Source: Pseudonocardia sp. 73-21 (GTDB lineage: Bacteria; Actinomycetota; Actinomycetes; Mycobacteriales; Pseudonocardiaceae). From it: 64,000 bases of DNA. The notes under the pieces are model-generated. The model was not told the origin of the DNA. It made no database searches and saw only the letters and a program-made list of their open reading frames with translations. Each line of letters begins with the position of its first letter. The first letter of the stretch is position 1. The DNA lies in contig NZ_MKVV01000047.1 in NCBI RefSeq assembly GCF_001899645.1, positions 28,745-92,744 on the forward strand. Direction: 5' to 3'. Below, one piece after another: positions 1 to 50,535 of this stretch. Both the position numbers and the translations under genes were made by a program.

Positions 1-156
1 GTGTGGTTGCGGTGCGAACAGCCGCGTGCCCTCCCACTCCGACGGCAACCAGTACGCGGCGCCGGTACGCCGGGCGTAGGTGGCGCCGTAGGCGTACTGC
101 AGGAGACGGTTACCGAACCGGCCCTGCCAGCGCAGCTGAAGGAGGGTGTCGCTCAC
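1..156 (-). CDS. Glycosyltransferase, GT11 (alpha-1,2-fucosyltransferase)-like, N-terminal part, runs off the window
   Basis: The minus strand reads 52 codons from a GTG at 156 to the window edge without a stop. The start of the protein contains GRFGNRLLQYAYGATYAR, which resembles the G-x-x-G-N-x-x-x-Q-Y motif at the N-terminus of GT11 alpha-1,2-fucosyltransferases and related sugar transferases. That motif begins the donor-binding fold; the HxRRxD motif would lie beyond the edge. It is divergent from the fused sugar-modifying gene at 292, with 135 bp between them as shared promoter space. The neighbours are two more fucosyltransferase-superfamily proteins, which supports a cell-surface or secondary-metabolite glycosylation role. 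The fragment is too short to assign donor or acceptor. Confidence 0.6.
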   Translation of the reverse strand, partial: MSDTLLQLRWQGRFGNRLLQYAYGATYARRTGAAYWLPSEWEGTRLFAPQPH

Positions 157-291: not shown

Positions 292-2604
292 GTGGCTCCG
301 TTGGAACGCTGGTACAACACCATCGTCGCCGCCCCTCCCCGACTCGGAGCGTGGCTCGACGATCGCCGACCCGCGCTGCGTGACCCGTGGGGTGGCCCGC
401 TCAACGGGCAACCGAAGCGGCAGCAGATCGTCCGGGACCTGCACGCGGCGATCGGGTTCGAGCACGTCGTCGAGACGGGCACCAACCGCGGGTCCAGCAC
501 CGCGTTCTTCGCCGTGGTCTGCGGAGTCCCGGTTTCCACCGTAGAGCTCATCCCCCGGATGGCCGCCTACTGCCGACGTCGCTTGGCCGTCCACGCAGAG
601 GTGGCAGTCACCTGCGGGGACTCCCGCCGTTTCCTCCGGGACCTGGCCGCCCGGCCGCAGGCGCGGCAGGAGACGACGCTGTTCTACCTCGACGCCCACG
701 GCGACGACGACCTGCCGCTGGCCGAGGAACTGGAGATCATCGCCGAGAGCTGGGACAACGCCGTAGTCATGATCGACGACTTCGAAGTCCCCACGGATCC
801 CGGGTACGGCTACGACAACCACGGCCCGGGCAAGGCACTGACCCTCGCCTATCTGCCCCGGCTGCCAGGGTGGCGGATCTTCTTCCCGGCCGCGAGTGCC
901 GCGGAGGAGGCGGGCGCCCGGCGGGGTTGCGTCGTACTCGCTTCCCCCTCGCTGGGCGGCGTCGTCGAGACCGTTCCCTCGCTGGTCCGCGGCCCGGACG
1001 ATCGCAGGGCCGCCCCGGCAGGCGAGGTCGCCGTCACCTACGACAACTCGAACTCCGATGGCGTCGGGTCGCAGCTGCAGCGAATCTTCGGGTTATGGGC
1101 CCTCTCGCGCGGCCTCGGCATCAGGTACGTGCACACGCCGCTCGGCCGTGTCGGCTACCAGGGCCTCATGCCGCTGCTTGAGGGGTCCCTGGAACCCGAC
1201 TTCGTCGACCGGTTCAACGCGTTCTTCACGCTGCCCTCCGACGAATTCGACCGGGAGCGCTGCGAGGTCGTCACGATCCATGGCCCGACGCCCCACGACA
1301 TCGAGCAGCTGCGGGAACGGGCCGCCGCGACCGGACGGCCGGTGCTGGTGTCGGCATGCCATCCCTTCGGCTACACCGACCACGTGCCGGAGGCCTGCTC
1401 CCGCATCCGCGTCGTCAGCCCCTACCGCCATCACCGCCCCACCGGGCCGATTCGCGTGTGCGTACACCTGCGGCGCGGCGACAACAGCTTCACCGGCCGC
1501 CCCGACCGTGACGAGCGCCTGCAGCCCAACGCCTACTACCTGCAGGTCCTCGCCACGCTGACCGACGAGCTGGCCAAGCAGGGCCTGCCGTTCCTGATCC
1601 GCATCCACACCGAGGTGCCACCGCACGCAGTCACCCTGCAACCCGGCGCTGAGGGCATCTACTTCCGCCTCGACGAACCGGGCACTGTGGACCCGGCCGA
1701 GATCGCGCTCGAGGAGTTCGCGGCGGTGCCGAACGTCGAGGTCGTGGCCAACGTCGACCCGAAAGAGGTGCTCGACGACTTCGCCACCGCCGACATCCTG
1801 GTGCTGTCGCGGTCCTCACTTGGCTACTTCGCCGGCCAGCTCAACCCGCATGGCGTGATCGTCTACTCCGAATGGTGGCACCCGCCGCTGCCGGGCTGGC
1901 TGGTCGCGACCCAGGACGGTGGCCTGGACCGCGTCGCGCTCGCTGCTCGGCTGGCGCAGCTGGCGCGAGGCCGCAGGAGGATCCGGCGCGCCGATGCTAG
2001 CGTGCGCGTGGTGAACCAGGAGCTTCGCGACCGCGGTTACGTCGCCTGCAAAGGCCTGCTCGATCCATCGCTCGCACGGGTGCTCTGGACGACGCTGCTG
2101 CTCAACCAGTGGCGCGGTGAGGCCTTCCGCGACAACCACGTCCCGACCGCTGCCAGCGTCGCCGGGTCGGCGACGACCGACGCGCTACTGCTGGACCTGC
2201 GGCCGCGGATCGAGGAGATTTCCGGCTGCCACCTCGTGCCCACCTACAGCTACGCCCGCCTCTACTTCCGCGGCGACGGCCTGATCCGCCACCGTGACCG
2301 CCAGGCCTGCGAGATCAGCGTCTCCATCCATCTCGGCAGAGTCGGCGGCGACGGCAGCCTCTGCTTCGGCGCCGACGACCGCGTCGACATGGACGAGGGC
2401 GACGGCGCGGTCTACCTCGGCTGCGCCACCGACCACTGGCGGGCACCGTTCGCCGGCTACACGATGGGCCAGGTCTTCCTGCACTACGTCGACCGGGACG
2501 GTCCCTATGCCCAGCAAGCCTTCGACGGGCGCCCCGAACGCTTCCCCACATCGCTCGTCACCGACCTGACCGGCCCCGCGCACACGGCACCCGCACGACC
2601 GTGA
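292..2604 (+). CDS. Three-domain protein: class I methyltransferase-like / fucosyltransferase-superfamily / 2OG-Fe(II) oxygenase-like
   Basis: A 770-residue protein starting at GTG 292, preceded by AGAGGA six bases upstream; in-frame GTGs at 226 and 271 lack such a site. Residues about 1-235 form a Rossmann methyltransferase-like domain (VETGTNRGSST glycine loop, then YLDAHGDDD and a DDFE acidic motif). Residues about 245-560 resemble the GT11/GT23/O-fucosyltransferase superfamily, with the HLRRGD motif (HxRRxD) and a late DILVLSRSSLGYFAG segment. Residues about 575-765 look like a prolyl-4-hydroxylase type 2OG-Fe(II) dioxygenase: RHRD supplies the HxD pair and DHWRAPF the distal His plus an Arg for 2-oxoglutarate. 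The stop overlaps the next gene by 4 bp (GTGA). I infer sequential transfer, methylation and hydroxylation of a sugar or glycoconjugate; the substrate is unknown. I do not recognise this exact architecture. Confidence 0.7.
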   Translation: MAPLERWYNTIVAAPPRLGAWLDDRRPALRDPWGGPLNGQPKRQQIVRDLHAAIGFEHVVETGTNRGSSTAFFAVVCGVPVSTVELIPRMAAYCRRRLAVHAEVAVTCGDSRRFLRDLAARPQARQETTLFYLDAHGDDDLPLAEELEIIAESWDNAVVMIDDFEVPTDPGYGYDNHGPGKALTLAYLPRLPGWRIFFPAASAAEEAGARRGCVVLASPSLGGVVETVPSLVRGPDDRRAAPAGEVAVTYDNSNSDGVGSQLQRIFGLWALSRGLGIRYVHTPLGRVGYQGLMPLLEGSLEPDFVDRFNAFFTLPSDEFDRERCEVVTIHGPTPHDIEQLRERAAATGRPVLVSACHPFGYTDHVPEACSRIRVVSPYRHHRPTGPIRVCVHLRRGDNSFTGRPDRDERLQPNAYYLQVLATLTDELAKQGLPFLIRIHTEVPPHAVTLQPGAEGIYFRLDEPGTVDPAEIALEEFAAVPNVEVVANVDPKEVLDDFATADILVLSRSSLGYFAGQLNPHGVIVYSEWWHPPLPGWLVATQDGGLDRVALAARLAQLARGRRRIRRADASVRVVNQELRDRGYVACKGLLDPSLARVLWTTLLLNQWRGEAFRDNHVPTAASVAGSATTDALLLDLRPRIEEISGCHLVPTYSYARLYFRGDGLIRHRDRQACEISVSIHLGRVGGDGSLCFGADDRVDMDEGDGAVYLGCATDHWRAPFAGYTMGQVFLHYVDRDGPYAQQAFDGRPERFPTSLVTDLTGPAHTAPARP

Positions 2605-4166
2605 CCGACGCCCGGCGGCTGTTCTTCCCCGGCTACTACTCCGGGTACAGCAACAACAGGATGTCGCTGGACATCGCCGTCGTGCTGGCCCACCTCACCG
2701 GCCGCGTGCTGGTGCCCTACCGCTTCCGCATGCCGCGCCGGCACCCGATCGATCCCGACGACGACCGGGTTCTCGCGCCGATGGTGGTTCCGGACCTGTT
2801 CGACCTGCCCGTCACGTCGTCCGACGAGCACCTGCTCAAGACCTGGGTCTCCGTACCCGACGTCGCCCGTTGGGACTGGGAGCCGATCTACGAGTCCGTA
2901 ATCTGCGTCGGCCCCGTTCCACCCCGCGACGATGCCCAGTTCGCCGCGTTCCGCAACGGGCGCAGCCACGTCCACACGATCGGATCCATCGCGACCGATG
3001 ACCGAGACCTCCACATCACCACGGAGGCCCTCGGCAACTACTCGACGTCCTTCTACCTCGAAGACGAGCGCCGCCACGAGGTCGCCGACCTGATGCGGCA
3101 AGTCCGTCCGAAGCAGGCCTACCGCGACGCCGCCGATCGGATCACCGCCGGACTCGGCACCTACAACGCCATCCACCTGCGCCGCGGCGACTTCCTGACC
3201 AACGAGCTCTCCCGACGCGGCATCTCCCGCGCCGCAACAACCCACGGGTGGGAGGTCGTGGGCAACCTCGCCGCCCACATGAACCGCGACACACCACTGG
3301 TGATCTGCACCGATGGCACGGCCGGCGAGGAGATCTTCGGCCCGATCCAGCGTCACTTCCGCCACTCGGTCTTCCTCGACCAGCACCTGCGCGAGGACGC
3401 CGCGGCCCGCGACTGCGTGCGTAGCCTCCCGCAGCGCGGCGAGGCGGTCGACGCGCTGCTCACCCAACTCGTCGCCACCAAGGCCCACACGTTTGCCGGC
3501 ACCTTCTTCAGCACCTTCACCGGCTTGATCCACCGCATGCGGGGCTTCGTCGACCCGCACGCCGAGGCCCTCTACTGCTACGACGACTTCCAGTCGCCAC
3601 TCGTCCGATTCGACCACGGCGCTTTCCTACCCGTCGACGACGGACCCTTCACCTGGAACCAGGTGCGTTACCCCGTCTCGCCCGACGCCTACTCCTGGAT
3701 GCGCGAATGGCCCGAGGCGTGGCGGCCGGAACAGCTGGCCGCCGGCGTCGCGCCCTGTCCCGACGCGACGCTGAACCTGCCCGCTGACAGCGCGAGCCTG
3801 CACGGACGAGCACTGCGCTGCGTCGAGGACATCGACGGCCAGCCGGTGCTCATCGACTGGACCGACCCAGCCGATCACCCGTCCTGGGACATAGACGTCG
3901 AGGACCGCGAACACTACGAGGTCGAAATCCGATACGCATGCCCCCGAGAATCAGCCGGGAGCGCCTACACCGTCGGCTCCGGCCGAGGTGACGACCTGCT
4001 CGCGACCGTGCACGACACCGGCGCCTGGACCAGCTCGTCACCATGGCTTCCGCTGGGGCGGATCGCACTCCCGCCCGGTTCCACGACCTTGTCCGTGCGG
4101 GCACACGACCTGCGCGGGCTGGCGGTCATGAACCTCTGCGGTCTGCGGCTACGGCCGGTGGCCTGA
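2601..4166 (+). CDS. O-fucosyltransferase-like glycosyltransferase with C-terminal beta-sandwich domain
   Basis: A 521-residue protein translationally coupled to the preceding fusion gene by a GTGA overlap. The N-terminal GYYSGYSNNRMSLDIAVVLA segment and the NAIHLRRGDF motif near residue 190 are typical of the protein O-fucosyltransferase/GT65-68 superfamily, where HxRRxD binds GDP-sugar. The segment with CTDGTAGEEIF and the later TFAGTFFSTFTGLIHRMRG matches the second Rossmann half of these enzymes. Residues about 385-521 are a separate region rich in beta-strand-forming residues, resembling a carbohydrate-binding or fucosidase-type C-terminal sandwich. No signal peptide is visible, so it probably acts in the cytoplasm on a nucleotide-sugar donor. 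Acceptor unknown; it probably works with the adjacent fusion protein on the same glycan. Confidence 0.65.
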   Translation: MTDARRLFFPGYYSGYSNNRMSLDIAVVLAHLTGRVLVPYRFRMPRRHPIDPDDDRVLAPMVVPDLFDLPVTSSDEHLLKTWVSVPDVARWDWEPIYESVICVGPVPPRDDAQFAAFRNGRSHVHTIGSIATDDRDLHITTEALGNYSTSFYLEDERRHEVADLMRQVRPKQAYRDAADRITAGLGTYNAIHLRRGDFLTNELSRRGISRAATTHGWEVVGNLAAHMNRDTPLVICTDGTAGEEIFGPIQRHFRHSVFLDQHLREDAAARDCVRSLPQRGEAVDALLTQLVATKAHTFAGTFFSTFTGLIHRMRGFVDPHAEALYCYDDFQSPLVRFDHGAFLPVDDGPFTWNQVRYPVSPDAYSWMREWPEAWRPEQLAAGVAPCPDATLNLPADSASLHGRALRCVEDIDGQPVLIDWTDPADHPSWDIDVEDREHYEVEIRYACPRESAGSAYTVGSGRGDDLLATVHDTGAWTSSSPWLPLGRIALPPGSTTLSVRAHDLRGLAVMNLCGLRLRPVA

Positions 4167-4336
4167 GCCGCCGGCCACAGCCACACAGTCCGGAGTCCCC
4201 GCTGACCCGATCGCGCCCAGCCGATCACCCCAGGTCCAGCCAGCTGTGACACGCCCACACGACGACGATCGCTCCGTTCGATCGAAACGCAGGGCGCCGC
4301 TCGGCAGATACCTCATAGGCACTGGTAGATCGTGGG

Positions 4337-4411
4337 TGGGGCGGGTGGGGTTCGAACCCACGACCTGACGGGTTATGAGTCCGCTGCTCTGACCAGCTGA
4401 GCTACCGCCCC
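4337..4411 (-). tRNA. tRNA with CAT anticodon (elongator Met, possibly Ile2)
   Basis: The minus strand folds as a full cloverleaf. The acceptor stem GGGGCGG pairs with CCGCCCC, the D-arm has GCTC/GAGC stems, the anticodon loop is CTCATAA, and the T-arm is GTGGG-TTCGAAC-CCCAC. The 3' CCA is not encoded. The G1-C72 pair excludes an initiator tRNA. The last pair of the anticodon stem (31-39) is an A-C mismatch, which is slightly odd. The CAT anticodon fits elongator tRNA-Met; an Ile tRNA carrying lysidine at the wobble position cannot be excluded by eye. The gene lies between the glycosyltransferase patch and core-like genes. Confidence 0.93.
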
Positions 4412-43430: not shown

Positions 43431-44408
43431 TCAGCCGGACACCGCGGCGAAACCACCGAGCAGCCGCGTGAACGCGAGGTCCTCCTGGGCGATGCCACTG
43501 CAGTCGACGGCCGGCTTCACCGCGTCCGGGCAGCCCCCCGTGTCGCGGCCCAGCGACCAGATCCCGACGTGCCCGAGCCCCCGCGAGCGGGCGAACTCGA
43601 GCACCTTCGTCGCGTCGGCGACCGTGGTGACGGGCCCGGCGTCGTTGCGGCCCACCATGACGGTGAGGCCGAGGGTCCGGTTCTGGACGGCCTCGCTCGC
43701 GTCGGGGTAGACCGACCGCATCTGGTCGAGGGTGGCCTGCCCGGCGTCCACCATCGCCTGGCCCCAGTCGCCGCCGGTGCGGAAGTTCATGTCCATCCCG
43801 TTCACCGAGAGCCGGACGCCCGCCGCGACGGTCTTCCGCACCAGGTCGAGGCCGGCCGGGGTCAGCCCGGCGAGGTCGATGGGCAGCGTGAGCGTCACCG
43901 CCGTGCCCCGGCTGCGCTGCACCTGCGCCAGCGCGGTGGCGATCCTCGTGGCGTCGACGGGCGCCTCGATGTCGACGTCGAGCCGCTGCGCGCGCACCGC
44001 GTCGAGCAGTCCGGTGTAGGCGCCCGCCAGCTTGTCGGCCGTGCCGCACGCGTTCTCCAGGTAGGTGCCGACCGCTCCCCCGGTGCCGACGACGACGTCA
44101 CCACCGGCCTTGCGGAACGCGTCGACCGCGGCGCCCAGTGCCGGGTCGGCCGCCGGGACGGTGCCGCCCCACATCGGGTTGCAGCCGCCGGGTCCGGCCA
44201 GCGCGAACGCCAGCGTCACGTGCTTCAGGCCGGTGGCCGCGGCCACCTGGGCCAGGTCGGGCCGCTTGACGGAGACGTCGACGTAGGGGGCGAACGCCAC
44301 GCCGGGAGTGATCTCCGTGGACGGCGACGGCGAGCCCGTGACGACGCTCTGGCACCCGGTGAGGGCGAGCAGGAGCAGGGCGAGCAGGGCCCGGCGGAGG
44401 CCCGCCAT
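43431..44408 (-). CDS. GH18-like lipoprotein (chitinase-fold)
   Basis: A 325-residue exported protein with a lipobox (ALLLLALTGC) after a basic start. The mature part has GVAFAPYVDVSVKRPDL, LKHVTLAFALAGPGGCNPMWGG and a beta-strand RLDVDIEAPVD, corresponding to the GH18 DxxDxDxE strand. Here the strand reads LDVDIEAP: D-x-D-x-E is kept, so hydrolysis is possible. GIWSLGRDTGGCP is the final barrel strand. This type (Streptomyces chitinase C-like, carbohydrate-binding) hydrolyses or binds beta-1,4-GlcNAc polymers. Start and upstream stop share one base (TGATG), so it is coupled to the deacetylase/GT2 gene and likely trims or binds the polymer made by that enzyme. Confidence 0.8.
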   Translation of the reverse strand: MAGLRRALLALLLLALTGCQSVVTGSPSPSTEITPGVAFAPYVDVSVKRPDLAQVAAATGLKHVTLAFALAGPGGCNPMWGGTVPAADPALGAAVDAFRKAGGDVVVGTGGAVGTYLENACGTADKLAGAYTGLLDAVRAQRLDVDIEAPVDATRIATALAQVQRSRGTAVTLTLPIDLAGLTPAGLDLVRKTVAAGVRLSVNGMDMNFRTGGDWGQAMVDAGQATLDQMRSVYPDASEAVQNRTLGLTVMVGRNDAGPVTTVADATKVLEFARSRGLGHVGIWSLGRDTGGCPDAVKPAVDCSGIAQEDLAFTRLLGGFAAVSG

Positions 44409-46519
44409 CACCGGCCCCCGGCGGCCGCGCCGGCGCCGCCGAAGTCGCCGACCCGCTTGAGCTTCTGCCAGCGCAACCTCACCCCGGCCAGCGCGGTGCC
44501 CATGGACTTGATCAGCACCGCGTACATCATCTGCCGGTAGACGAGCTGCTGGAGCGGCATCCACAGCAGGGGCAGCGGGTTCTCCCGCTCCATGCCGAAG
44601 GCGAGCAGGCCCGAGAGCATCTGGATGCCCAGCACCGCGCCCCACAGCTGCAGGGTCCGGACGGGGTCGAGCGCGACGAGACCGTAGACCAGGAAGACGT
44701 CGATCAGCGGCGCCAGCATCGGGAGCATCACCTGGAACAGCGCGAGGTTCAGCAGCCCCACCCGGCCCATCCGCCCGGCCGGGCCCGAGCGGAACACCGA
44801 CCCGCGGTGCTTCCACATCGCCTGCATGGTGCCGTAGCTCCAGCGGTAGCGCTGCCGCCAGAGCTGCTGGAGCGTGGTGGGGGCCTCCGTCCAGGCCCGG
44901 GCCCGCTCCTCGTAGACGATCTGCCAGCCGGCGGCGCAGACCGCCATCGTCAGGTCGGTGTCCTCGGCGAGGGTGTCGTCGCTGACCAGGCCCGCCTGCA
45001 GCAACGCCGTGCGGCGGAACGCCCCGACCGCACCCGGGATGGTGGTCATACAGCCGAGCAGGTCCTGGATCCGGCGGTCGATGTTGAACCCGATGACGTA
45101 CTCGATGTGCTGCCAGCGGCCCACCAGCTTCTTCCGGTTGGCGACCTTCGCGTTCCCCGAGACGGCGCCGACCTCGGGCCGGGCGAACGGCTGGACGAGC
45201 AGCCGCACGGTGGAGGGCTCGAAGACCGTGTCCCCGTCGATCATCACCACGATCTCGTGGCGCGCGTGCTTGATGCCGTTGTTCAGCGCCGCAGGCTTGC
45301 CGCCGTTGGCCTGCCGGATCAGCCGGACGCCGGGCAGGTTGAGCCCGCGGACGATCGCGGCGGTCTCGTCGGTGGACCCGTCGTCCACGACGATGATCTC
45401 GATGGGGTGCTCGCTGGCCATCAGGGAGCGCACGGTGGCGGCGATGCACTCCTTCTCGTTGTAGGCCGGGACGATCACCGACACGGGCGCGGTGACGGGC
45501 GGCCCCCACCGGAAGCGCTTCGGGTTACGTCGGACCGAGTGGTAGATCGCGAACACGAGCATCAGCGCCAGCCGCAGCAGCACCAGGCCGCCGGCCACCA
45601 GCAGCAGCCATCCCAGGGCCGCCACGATCGTCGTCGACACCGCCACCACCGCGAGCATCCCGTCGCCGACGGCCTTGTCGCGCTCGCGCGCCTGCTGGCC
45701 GGCGGGGGGCAGGCCGGTTGCCCTGGTGACGGTCGCGAACGTGTAGCCCCGGTCGCGCAGGGCCGGGATCACCCGGGCCAGCGCCGAGGCCAGCTGCGCG
45801 GGGCCGCCCTCGGAGGCGTCGACGGAGATGACCCGCCCGGCCTTGTCCGGCGTGACGACGGTCGCGAGGATCTCGTCGGTGGTGCGCCGCGTCCATCCGG
45901 CCGCCGAGACGTCGCTGAAGACCGACACCATGCCGTGGTCGGCCAGCCGGCGGACGAGCGCGAAGTGCTCGTCGTCGAGCCCGGCCACCGACGCGGAGTA
46001 CGGCGGTCGCACCAGGTAGGTCGTCCGGTCCACCGCGCCGGCCAGTGCGAGCTCGGTGAGGGTGAGCTCGCGGTCGAGCCGGGTGTCGGACACCGAGGCG
46101 AGGTCCTGGCTGGTGAACGTGCGGATCCCGATCTCCGATCCTGCGCCGAGGATCGAGCGGGCCGCCTCGGGGTGCTGCGCCACCACGGCCCCGCTGACGA
46201 AGAACGTGGCCGGCACACCGAAGTGGCTCAGGACGCCGAGGAGCTGGGCCGTGCGGGACGGGTCCGGCCCGCCGTCGATGGTGAAGGCGATGGTGCCCCT
46301 GGCCGGGGCGAACGTGCGGATCGGGCTGCTGCGGACGTCGACCACCGGGGCGCCGTGCGCCACCGCGAACGGCACCTGGCCGTTCGGCCCCGCGACCGCG
46401 GGGGCCGGGGCCTCGGTCAGGGTGCTGCCGCGCACCGTCCCGTCGATGACCAGGACGGTGCCGAAGACCAGGAGGATCGCGACGGAGAGCACCCAGGTGG
46501 GCCGGGGCAGGATCCTCAT
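44408..46519 (-). CDS. Polysaccharide deacetylase-like / GT2 glycosyltransferase fusion (exopolysaccharide synthase)
   Basis: A 703-residue membrane protein. A signal-anchor helix (residues 8-27) leads to an extracytoplasmic NodB-like domain (about 75-265), then a membrane helix (about 290-325), a cytoplasmic GT2 domain (about 345-590) and terminal membrane helices. GT2 motifs are intact: VDDGSTDET, MIDGDTVFEP, LAEDTDLTM and QRYRW. The deacetylase domain keeps ATFFVSG and RPPYS, but motif 1 reads TIDGGPDP (metal Asp replaced by Gly) and motif 2 reads IRTFTSQDL, lacking both metal-binding His. It is therefore probably inactive as a metal hydrolase. The GT2 part resembles PgaC/IcaA/BcsA-type synthases, so a GlcNAc- or glucose-based polymer is likely. 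Confidence 0.85.
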   Translation of the reverse strand: MRILPRPTWVLSVAILLVFGTVLVIDGTVRGSTLTEAPAPAVAGPNGQVPFAVAHGAPVVDVRSSPIRTFAPARGTIAFTIDGGPDPSRTAQLLGVLSHFGVPATFFVSGAVVAQHPEAARSILGAGSEIGIRTFTSQDLASVSDTRLDRELTLTELALAGAVDRTTYLVRPPYSASVAGLDDEHFALVRRLADHGMVSVFSDVSAAGWTRRTTDEILATVVTPDKAGRVISVDASEGGPAQLASALARVIPALRDRGYTFATVTRATGLPPAGQQARERDKAVGDGMLAVVAVSTTIVAALGWLLLVAGGLVLLRLALMLVFAIYHSVRRNPKRFRWGPPVTAPVSVIVPAYNEKECIAATVRSLMASEHPIEIIVVDDGSTDETAAIVRGLNLPGVRLIRQANGGKPAALNNGIKHARHEIVVMIDGDTVFEPSTVRLLVQPFARPEVGAVSGNAKVANRKKLVGRWQHIEYVIGFNIDRRIQDLLGCMTTIPGAVGAFRRTALLQAGLVSDDTLAEDTDLTMAVCAAGWQIVYEERARAWTEAPTTLQQLWRQRYRWSYGTMQAMWKHRGSVFRSGPAGRMGRVGLLNLALFQVMLPMLAPLIDVFLVYGLVALDPVRTLQLWGAVLGIQMLSGLLAFGMERENPLPLLWMPLQQLVYRQMMYAVLIKSMGTALAGVRLRWQKLKRVGDFGGAGAAAGGR

Positions 46520-49863: not shown

Positions 49864-50535
49864 ATGGCCACCGCAGGGAAGGTCGACCGACCCCAGGTCG
49901 ACAGGGTCGACAGGGTCGACAGGGTCGACAGGGTCGACAGGGTCGACAAGGTCGAGGAGCGCCGCCGCGAGCTCGCGGACGCGGCGCTCCAGACGCTGTC
50001 CGCCCTCGGTTACGCGCGCACCAGCCTGCGCGAGATCGCCCAGAACTCGGCGTTCTCCCACGGCGTCCTGCACTACTACTTCCGCGACAAGGTCGACCTG
50101 ATCACCTACTGCGTGCGGCGGTACAAGGCGGTCTGCGTGCAGCGCTACGACCAGATCGTGGCCACCGCCCGCACCCCCGAGGGTCTCGCGCAGGGTTTCG
50201 CCGACGGGCTCGTGGCCACCCTCGTCGCCGACGCGCACATGCACCGGCTCTGGTACGACCTGCGCTCGCAGGCGCTGTTCGAGGACTCGTTCCGCGCGGA
50301 CGTGCTGGAGATCGACTCCACGCTGGAGCGGATGATCTGGCGGATCGTCAGCCGGTACGCCGAGCTCACCGGCTCGCCGGTGCTCACCGGCGAGTCGATG
50401 ACCTACGCGATGTTCGACGGGCTGTTCCAGCAGGCCCTGCTGCGGCACCTGGCCGGCCAGGAGGGTGCGGAGGTGCACCTGCACGCGAGCGTGCGCCGGC
50501 TGATCGACCAGGTGGTGCCGGCTACTTCCCGTTGA
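49864..50535 (+). CDS. TetR-family regulator with a VDR-repeat N-terminal arm
   Basis: A 223-residue regulator. Residues about 10-28 are an unusual repeat QVDRVDRVDRVDRVDRVDKV, coded by six tandem copies of a 9-bp unit. The helix-turn-helix follows: RRRELADAALQTLSALGYARTSLREIAQNSAFSHGVLHYYFRDKVDLITY. The ligand domain contains LWYDLRSQALFEDSFRADVLEIDS. It is divergent from the SDR/acyl-CoA-ligase operon and probably regulates it. The charged arm may extend the DNA-binding surface, as N-terminal arms do in other TetR proteins; copy number could vary between strains. The end overlaps a small convergent gene by 14 bp. Confidence 0.88.
   Translation: MATAGKVDRPQVDRVDRVDRVDRVDRVDKVEERRRELADAALQTLSALGYARTSLREIAQNSAFSHGVLHYYFRDKVDLITYCVRRYKAVCVQRYDQIVATARTPEGLAQGFADGLVATLVADAHMHRLWYDLRSQALFEDSFRADVLEIDSTLERMIWRIVSRYAELTGSPVLTGESMTYAMFDGLFQQALLRHLAGQEGAEVHLHASVRRLIDQVVPATSR
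49896..49949 (+). repeat. Six tandem 9-bp repeats inside a tetR gene
   Basis: The unit GGTCGACAG occurs five times exactly (49896-49940), followed by a sixth with one change (GGTCGACAA). All copies are in frame and encode Val-Asp-Arg. Each contains the palindrome GTCGAC. Confidence 0.9.

Follow-up and report, generated by a model that had tools for sequence, protein, structure and literature searches.

Partial fusions of the activities considered here are already known, as far as the available portions of the reports go. WsaE, from the S-layer glycan system of Geobacillus stearothermophilus, likewise carries an N-terminal methyltransferase fused to glycosyltransferase domains; it differs in having two rhamnosyltransferase domains, with no oxygenase mentioned in the portion available (PMC2943079), and it is likened by description, not by sequence. 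A064R of chlorovirus PBCV-1 is likewise a three-domain protein with glycosyltransferases and an O-methyltransferase, but its third activity is a second glycosyltransferase rather than an oxygenase, and its methyltransferase is C-terminal (PMC9614988, in part). EvdMO1, from the everninomicin oligosaccharide pathway, is likewise a methyltransferase-oxidase fusion, but a glycosyltransferase is absent from its description by title. A survey of jumbo phages, in the portion available, describes cyanophage glycosyltransferase clusters and another cluster with carbamoyltransferases, 2-oxoglutarate (2OG) oxygenases, and, in variants, O-methyltransferases, which was proposed to decorate capsular polysaccharide or to make a metabolite; the activities are the same as here, but they lie on separate genes (PMC7824862). 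In this study, we analyzed a 64,000-nucleotide stretch of DNA (contig C47, positions 28745-92744; hereafter, the window) from the 7.09 Mb genome (99.98% complete) of a soil actinobacterium of the genus Pseudonocardia. It encodes a 770-residue protein in which methyltransferase-, glycosyltransferase-, and oxygenase-like regions follow one another, and no description of these three activities in one chain was found in the open-licence papers searched. We see an even chance that this protein tailors glycans as a fusion enzyme, with an L-hexose being transferred, O-methylated, and oxidised in a small sugar-decorating locus. The protein and its parts are as follows.

292..2604, + strand: tri-domain protein, 770 residues, GTG start at 292, alternative start upstream at 226
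292..996, + strand: region 1 (residues 1-235), COMT/Methyltransf_24-like S-adenosylmethionine (SAM)-dependent methyltransferase, from profile match and relatives
691..780, + strand: putative metal-site acids D134, D162, and D163 (YLDAH ... IDDF), from alignment
1000..1986, + strand: region 2 (residues 237-565), putative glycosyltransferase, 76% identical in locus L004
1465..1482, + strand: HLRRGD motif of region 2 (residues 392-397)
1987..2604, + strand: region 3 (residues 566-770), predicted 2OG-Fe(II) dioxygenase domain of the phrog_2954 family, from profile, triad, and fold
2290..2442, + strand: facial triad H667, D669, and H715 plus invariant R717, from alignment

The initial annotation, made from the letters alone, had read a single 770-residue frame with three motifs, and this was borne out. 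The frame (226/292-2604, + strand) is unbroken, with 794 codons from stop to stop and 770 residues counted from the GTG at 292, and it contains ETGTNRGSST (residues 61-70), HLRRGD (392-397), HRD (667-669), and a distal histidine at 715. By codon position, the G+C content stays typical of coding sequence through both joints between domains, at 0.85-0.93 for the third position between 406 and 2565. The frame and its motifs are confirmed as real, beyond chance, because four proteins of other organisms match region 1 at 40-48% identity, region 3 matches phrog_2954 and has invariant residues, and regions 2-3 together with the following gene (gene 2) are conserved in a second Pseudonocardia.

On sequence grounds, region 1 is a COMT-like methyltransferase, as had been proposed: its profile reaches catechol O-methyltransferases (COMT) at 3.2e-6, while Methyltransf_24 (PF13578) scores 15 bits, under the curated cut-off of 26.3. 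Of the four relatives in this identity range, one is encoded on a Streptomyces plasmid and one, with additional residues flanking the domain on both sides, on an Azospirillum plasmid; the other two come from genomes G106 and G042, and their neighbor genes are polysaccharide-like by eye. Among the loci with region 1 relatives, L016 and L007 are apparent polysaccharide loci, with genes named by eye, and in L013 the relative adjoins annotated glycosyltransferases. Residues E61, G63, T64, and G67 of the putative SAM loop and the putative metal-site acids D134, D162, and D163 are invariant in all five aligned rows. The COMT stretches LDHW and ADN, whose acids serve as Mg ligands in COMT, are aligned with D134 and D162/D163. 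A scan of viral sequences with region 1 yielded 47 loci with relatives; of the viral methyltransferase rows, L068 and L076 were left out. In two viral proteins (L080:7293-8585 and L083:7239-8528), a region-1-type methyltransferase is preceded by about 250 residues that are glycosyltransferase-like by eye.

Region 3 is read as a 2OG-type enzyme from its metal-binding triad and its predicted fold. The phrog_2954 profile matches it at 4e-39 over residues 581-748, and H667, D669, H715, and R717 are identical in 21 of 21 aligned rows, R717 being a candidate for the basic residue that binds 2-oxoglutarate. Besides the window protein and L026, these rows comprise a selection of 19 from 41 region-3 loci, which excludes near-duplicates, truncated copies, and the longer proteins of L032, L036, and L037; the triad is also kept in seven of seven sequences of a separate comparison that included phage proteins. 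A structure model of regions 2-3, built on the same 21 rows, is confident over the domain (pLDDT, the predicted local distance difference test, mostly 80-93), and a double-stranded beta-helix is confidently predicted. Foldseek searches with this model ranked prolyl 4-hydroxylases (P4H) first (Pseudomonas putida P4H, 4j25, 7.4e-9), and the top fold matches also included SnoN, SnoK, EvdMO1 (6ec3), EvdO1, HygX, and a prolyl hydroxylase with a (Ser-Pro)5 peptide. A second structural comparison with VIA-align gave Z 16.1 to SnoN (180 residues, 3.2 Å) and Z 15.8 to P4H (164 residues, 3.3 Å), which is a tie. The dioxygenase that had been proposed from the HxD...H motif is thus upheld by the triad, the phrog_2954 match, and the predicted fold; the opposing scenario, a third region without a double-stranded beta-helix, fails as far as prediction tells, because the triad is invariant and the beta-helix is confidently predicted. 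Relatives of region 3 occur as separate genes on a Cupriavidus plasmid, in Rhizobacter, on a contig filed under Porticoccaceae (a phage by eye), and on 37 viral contigs; the closest outside Pseudonocardia is that of Rhizobacter sp. Root1221 (L027, 51%).

HxRRxD is a motif of O-fucosyltransferase (O-FucT)-, GT11-, and GT23-type glycosyltransferases. Region 2 contains it as HLRRGD, which is present in the window protein and its one relative, and the partial model of the region shows alternating helices and strands with a predicted strand preceding the motif; from these two features, region 2 is probably a glycosyltransferase. The same motif is present in gene 2, whose GTG at 2601 overlaps the TGA of the 770-residue frame (shared GTGA, 2601-2604). 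The coupling to an O-FucT-like gene that had been noted earlier was therefore seen, with the family match below cut-off: O-FucT (PF10250) scores 23.5 bits on gene 2 and 26.1 bits on its relative, against a cut-off of 31.5. The C-terminal part of gene 2 has a weak golvesin-type likeness (Golvesin_C, E 0.05, below cut-off and in the relative only), and its structure model is low in confidence (mean pLDDT 33). Common descent of region 2 and gene 2 is unsupported, because a comparison of their profiles gave a probability of 2.4%. The genes and features around the 770-residue frame are as follows (L002 denotes the locus that covers the left flank).

2601..4166, + strand: gene 2, O-FucT-like protein (HLRRGD at residues 192-197; PF10250 below cut-off)
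1..156, - strand: 5' end of the GT11-like gene, start codon 154-156, extending left across a gap of 25 N to about L002:18992
L002:18309-18941, - strand: gene for a PqqD-like protein that ends in a (Pro-Thr)31 tail, flanked by the GT11-like and epimerase genes
4335..4411, - strand: tRNA-Met, the next feature to the right (ARAGORN)

On the minus strand of the left flank, the GT11-like gene comes first in the direction of transcription, followed by the gene of the PqqD-like protein, which has 31 Pro-Thr units, and then by that of a GDP-mannose 3,5-epimerase. The divergent GT11-like gene was present as noted earlier, its GT11 likeness being judged by eye: GRFGNRLLQYAYG is found among its first residues, its N-terminus reads VSDTLLQLRWQGRFGNRLLQYAYG, and HLRRDD lies past the gap. 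The 25-base gap falls inside this gene, and the window opens directly after it. The part left of the gap had no Pfam match at E<=0.1, and the C-terminal part, used as a query, was found in one of five genomes searched, namely its own. The epimerase belongs plainly to its family, matching solved GDP-mannose 3,5-epimerases at 1.7e-90 (8sg0) with the next family at 1.2e-26. Such an enzyme should yield GDP-L-galactose or GDP-L-gulose, not deoxy-sugars. Neither gmd nor GDP-fucose synthase was found above curated cut-offs in the genome, whereas, of 14 control genomes, 6 and 4, respectively, passed the cut-off in the same searches; GDP-fucose was dropped as the donor on this account. GDP-L-galactose is the likelier donor, because the left flank encodes the epimerase and both GDP-fucose pathway genes miss the cut-off. 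The sugar-modification patch of the initial annotation thus stands, with the epimerase left of the window and the O-FucT-like gene (below cut-off) on the right, but the deoxy-sugar proposed with it is not supported.

The glycosyltransferase-oxygenase (GT-2OG) pair and gene 2 occur in 2 of the 62 Pseudonocardia genomes searched, the source genome and G006. Gene 2 follows GT-2OG in both, and the identity between the two genomes is 78% for regions 2-3 and 73% for gene 2. The epimerase (E<=1e-60) is present in five of the 62 genomes, including both of these; their two copies are 84% identical, and the remaining three are at 55-56%. If the genes were distributed independently, the chance of finding both GT-2OG genomes among the five would be C(5,2)/C(62,2)=0.005, a figure weakened because the two species may be close kin. 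In both genomes, a kinase-like/2OG gene lies convergent to the epimerase (here L002:15593-17305, + strand). The N-terminal part of its product is weakly HprK-related and the C-terminal part is a 2OG-Fe(II) oxygenase; the protein is 75% identical in G006.

In G006, the GT-2OG frame opens at a GTG, the equivalent of residue 232, with GGGAGG 9 bases ahead of it, and the contig ends 110 bases upstream of this GTG. The sequence in between is unrelated to the methyltransferase. A frameshifted methyltransferase tail was dropped as an explanation, since neither the three frames nor the DNA scored better than shuffles (0.23-0.55 of the shuffles reach the score), and a methyltransferase match was absent elsewhere in this 72%-complete genome. 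GT-2OG is the more widely seen unit, because it is fused in G006 too, where the methyltransferase part is missing; either the methyltransferase joined it in the present lineage or it was lost in the other. The earlier caveat that the frame may join genes that are separate in relatives accordingly applies to the methyltransferase, which is unfused in one relative, but not to GT and 2OG.

In further searches, the single protein had no match among genome contigs, no relative turned up in viral sequences for the whole protein, for region 2 by itself, or for gene 2, and plasmids likewise yielded none for gene 2. Order-level profile searches (397 genomes each, the source genome included) gave, besides the source genome, weak short matches in two genomes for GT-2OG and one for gene 2, regarded as chance, and a phylum search gave four more weak matches (L009-L012, E 2e-8 to 9e-4). 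Among 84 viral loci, two (L104 and L078, both from the methyltransferase scan) hold region-1- and region-3-type genes close together (E<=1e-4). If the first ATG is taken as the start, the pair in L104 shares 35 bases; it adjoins carbamoyltransferase-like and further 2OG genes. Here the two outer domains occur in unfused form, in an arrangement that resembles the published cyanophage cluster. In addition, the predicted structure of A0A7S9XHF8 (virus NIOZ-UU159, BFVD; 512 residues, named glycosyltransferase, with a DXD motif) matches the region 2-3 model. It may be a GT-2OG fusion, but its glycosyltransferase type is distinct by name.

If the 770-residue protein is a glycan-tailoring enzyme, the epimerase left of the window would convert GDP-mannose to GDP-L-galactose (or L-gulose), and the HxRRxD-type transferases (region 2, gene 2, and the divergent gene) would place the sugar on an acceptor, presumably a surface glycan or glycoprotein. 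Using SAM and a divalent metal, region 1 would O-methylate a hydroxyl of a sugar, and region 3, with Fe(II), O2, and 2-oxoglutarate, would hydroxylate the product or its peptide carrier or oxidise it further, although the order of these reactions is itself conjectural. The acceptor may be a glycan, a protein tail, or a small molecule. If this is right, a single chain transfers, methylates, and oxidises a sugar, which would be useful for glycan engineering, and a bacterial use for GDP-L-galactose is suggested.

Several observations weigh against this reading. The glycosyltransferase proposed for region 2 has the expected motif but no family match: Pfam gave none at E<=1 (a threshold at which the HMMER filters discard most matches above 0.1), a profile search of the PDB gave chance-level matches only, and the model of the region is partial, with ten-residue mean pLDDT values of 32-92. 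VIA-align listed no glycosyltransferase either, but the oxygenase domain fills its list and the absence is uninformative. For region 3, a Pfam 2OG family match is absent for the window protein (E<=1) and for the relatives L015, L027, L029, and L052 (E<=0.1), and a search with its profile reaches none of the solved 2OG enzymes at the sequence level (best E 0.4). The methyltransferase fusion was seen in one genome only, and the presence of the epimerase falls short of proving the donor. In G006, the epimerase and the kinase-like/2OG gene lie at the start of one contig and GT-2OG and gene 2 at the end of another, so the adjacency of the two gene pairs is not established there; it is plausible that the missing stretch would contain the Pro-Thr repeat, a likely assembly breaker. 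Finally, no flippase, polymerase, or exporter was recognised by eye among the L002 left-flank frames (at least 100 codons, composition-filtered).

It is possible, though on the unlikely side, that the system is directed at a protein, with the enzymes modifying the neighboring PqqD-(Pro-Thr)31 protein and its PqqD-like part recruiting them. Region 3 and the kinase-like/2OG gene, as P4H-like oxygenases, would hydroxylate the prolines, sugars and methyl groups would be added at threonines or hydroxyprolines, and the tail would be exported. The PqqD (PF05402) match is above cut-off (30.9 versus 23.4 bits), and the gene sits between the GT11-like gene and the epimerase on the same strand. Its 31 Pro-Thr units are written with two proline and two threonine codons intermixed, and a twin-arginine-like stretch (by eye) precedes the tail. 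The prolyl hydroxylases among the top fold matches, one with its (Ser-Pro)5 peptide, point the same way, as does the Rhizobacter region 3 relative, whose gene follows that of a protein carrying 26 TExSPG motifs in 24 DNA spellings. However, the DNA of the Pro-Thr tail is a 12/18-base tandem array and slippage may account for it, and the sugar-acting oxygenase SnoN ranks equally high in the fold comparison. The gene was seen in this genome only: PqqD matches occur in 7 of the 62 genus genomes, the seven loci of the other six have no run of four Pro-Thr units in any frame, and G006, whose contig breaks at that place, has no PqqD match. The cut-offs of the HPr-rel-A system were missed as well (TIGR04352, 17.1-17.4 of 200 bits; TIGR04353, 19.3 of 35 bits). 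A more specific proposal appears improbable, namely that the locus provides bacteria with an equivalent of mucins or of the hydroxyproline-rich glycoproteins of plants. In that case, P4H-like oxygenases would hydroxylate prolines of the PqqD-led (Pro-Thr)31 protein, protein-O-fucosyltransferase-like enzymes would attach L-galactose to it through oxygen, and it would be O-methylated, a single chain carrying three of these activities.

We also consider it rather unlikely that the enzymes tailor a secondary metabolite, building onto a small molecule a sugar that is methylated and either oxidatively cyclised or epimerised, in the manner of the orthosomycin or nogalamycin pathways. The fold matches to SnoN and SnoK (nogalamycin), EvdMO1, EvdO1, and HygX would fit such a role, but a common fold says nothing of function, and inspection by eye of the left-flank frames and of the window to 9 kb revealed neither a polyketide nor a peptide synthase; ten further long frames searched against Pfam at 1e-5, three of which matched nothing, showed none either. 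It is very unlikely that the fusion is an assembly or annotation artefact in which a methyltransferase gene was joined to a GT-2OG gene: the only relative has a GGGAGG-led GTG and non-homologous sequence in place of the methyltransferase, and an assembly gap lies 291 bases ahead of the start used, but the frame is free of N and stops, its third-position G+C is in phase throughout, and the G006 evidence is weak because of the contig end so close to its GTG.

The match to phrog_2954 ties this family, reported from marine phages under the name "ferrochelatase", to the 2OG-Fe(II) oxygenases. Region 3 matches 156 of 50,697 phage records; among the best 25 of the 156, 19 carry the ferrochelatase label (including spelling variants), two a 2OG oxygenase label, and four neither. 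For Synechococcus phage S-SCSM1, the GenBank and RefSeq records disagree at the same coordinates, with ferrochelatase in one and 2OG oxygenase in the other. Four ferrochelatase-labelled phage proteins (L147:2501-3100, L147:3087-3617, L148:2411-3181, and L149:2429-3160) keep all triad positions, and at E<=1 neither these four nor the window protein matches Ferrochelatase (PF00762). The 'Ferrochelatase' of phage S-SM1 in BFVD (E3SI68) aligns with the region 2-3 model at 9.8e-13, with a root-mean-square deviation of 1.8 over 135 columns. The phage proteins thus share the profile family, triad, and predicted fold of region 3, but they are stand-alone (176 to 256 residues in the four examined). Taken together, these results indicate that the ferrochelatase label of phrog_2954, in cyanophage and pelagiphage genes, is probably wrong. 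In a literature check too small to show that the correction is unpublished, the term 'misannotated' was absent from the papers listed, and 'ferrochelatase' is absent from the main text of the Phold paper. One report, in the portion available, describes 'ferrochelatase (phrog2954)' as seasonally enriched (PMC11561400), and another, likewise in part, states that those of its pelagiphages that encode a ferrochelatase always have a 2OG oxygenase adjacent (PMC9599517). If an assay confirms the oxygenase assignment, the statements on phage haem genes in these reports, as far as they are available, would need rewording.

Two of the separate region 3 relatives lie in similar loci. In Rhizobacter sp. 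Root1221 (L027:6070-12116) and on the Cupriavidus oxalaticus plasmid (L015:5265-10107), a repetitive protein with 26 and 12 TExSPG motifs in 24 and 12 DNA spellings, respectively, is followed by a protein with no Pfam match above cut-off, the region-3-type oxygenase, a second 2OG oxygenase, and an aldo/keto reductase; the Cupriavidus locus additionally has an FkbM methyltransferase. Mere DNA repetition was dropped as an explanation of the repeat, given 24 spellings in 26 copies. These loci possibly encode a multi-core peptide precursor with its tailoring enzymes, and the string TEMSPG was not found in the literature searched.

To the right of the tRNA-Met, ten long frames of the window were searched against Pfam (1e-5), of which three had no match and seven matched a PhoD-like phosphatase, a GMC oxidoreductase, an aldehyde dehydrogenase, a deacetylase-glycosyltransferase fusion, an acyl-CoA-synthetase-like protein, a dienelactone-hydrolase-like protein, and a flavin oxidoreductase; among these ten, there is no obvious tie to the sugar patch. 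ARAGORN called a second tRNA at window positions 50311-50400, a tRNA-Ala(ggc) of 90 bases, which overlaps long open frames of both strands and is perhaps a false call. The deacetylase-glycosyltransferase fusion is a 703-residue frame (window 44408-46519, - strand) about 40 kb from the patch, with a polysaccharide deacetylase domain at residues 74-176 and a family-2 glycosyltransferase domain at residues 345-563.

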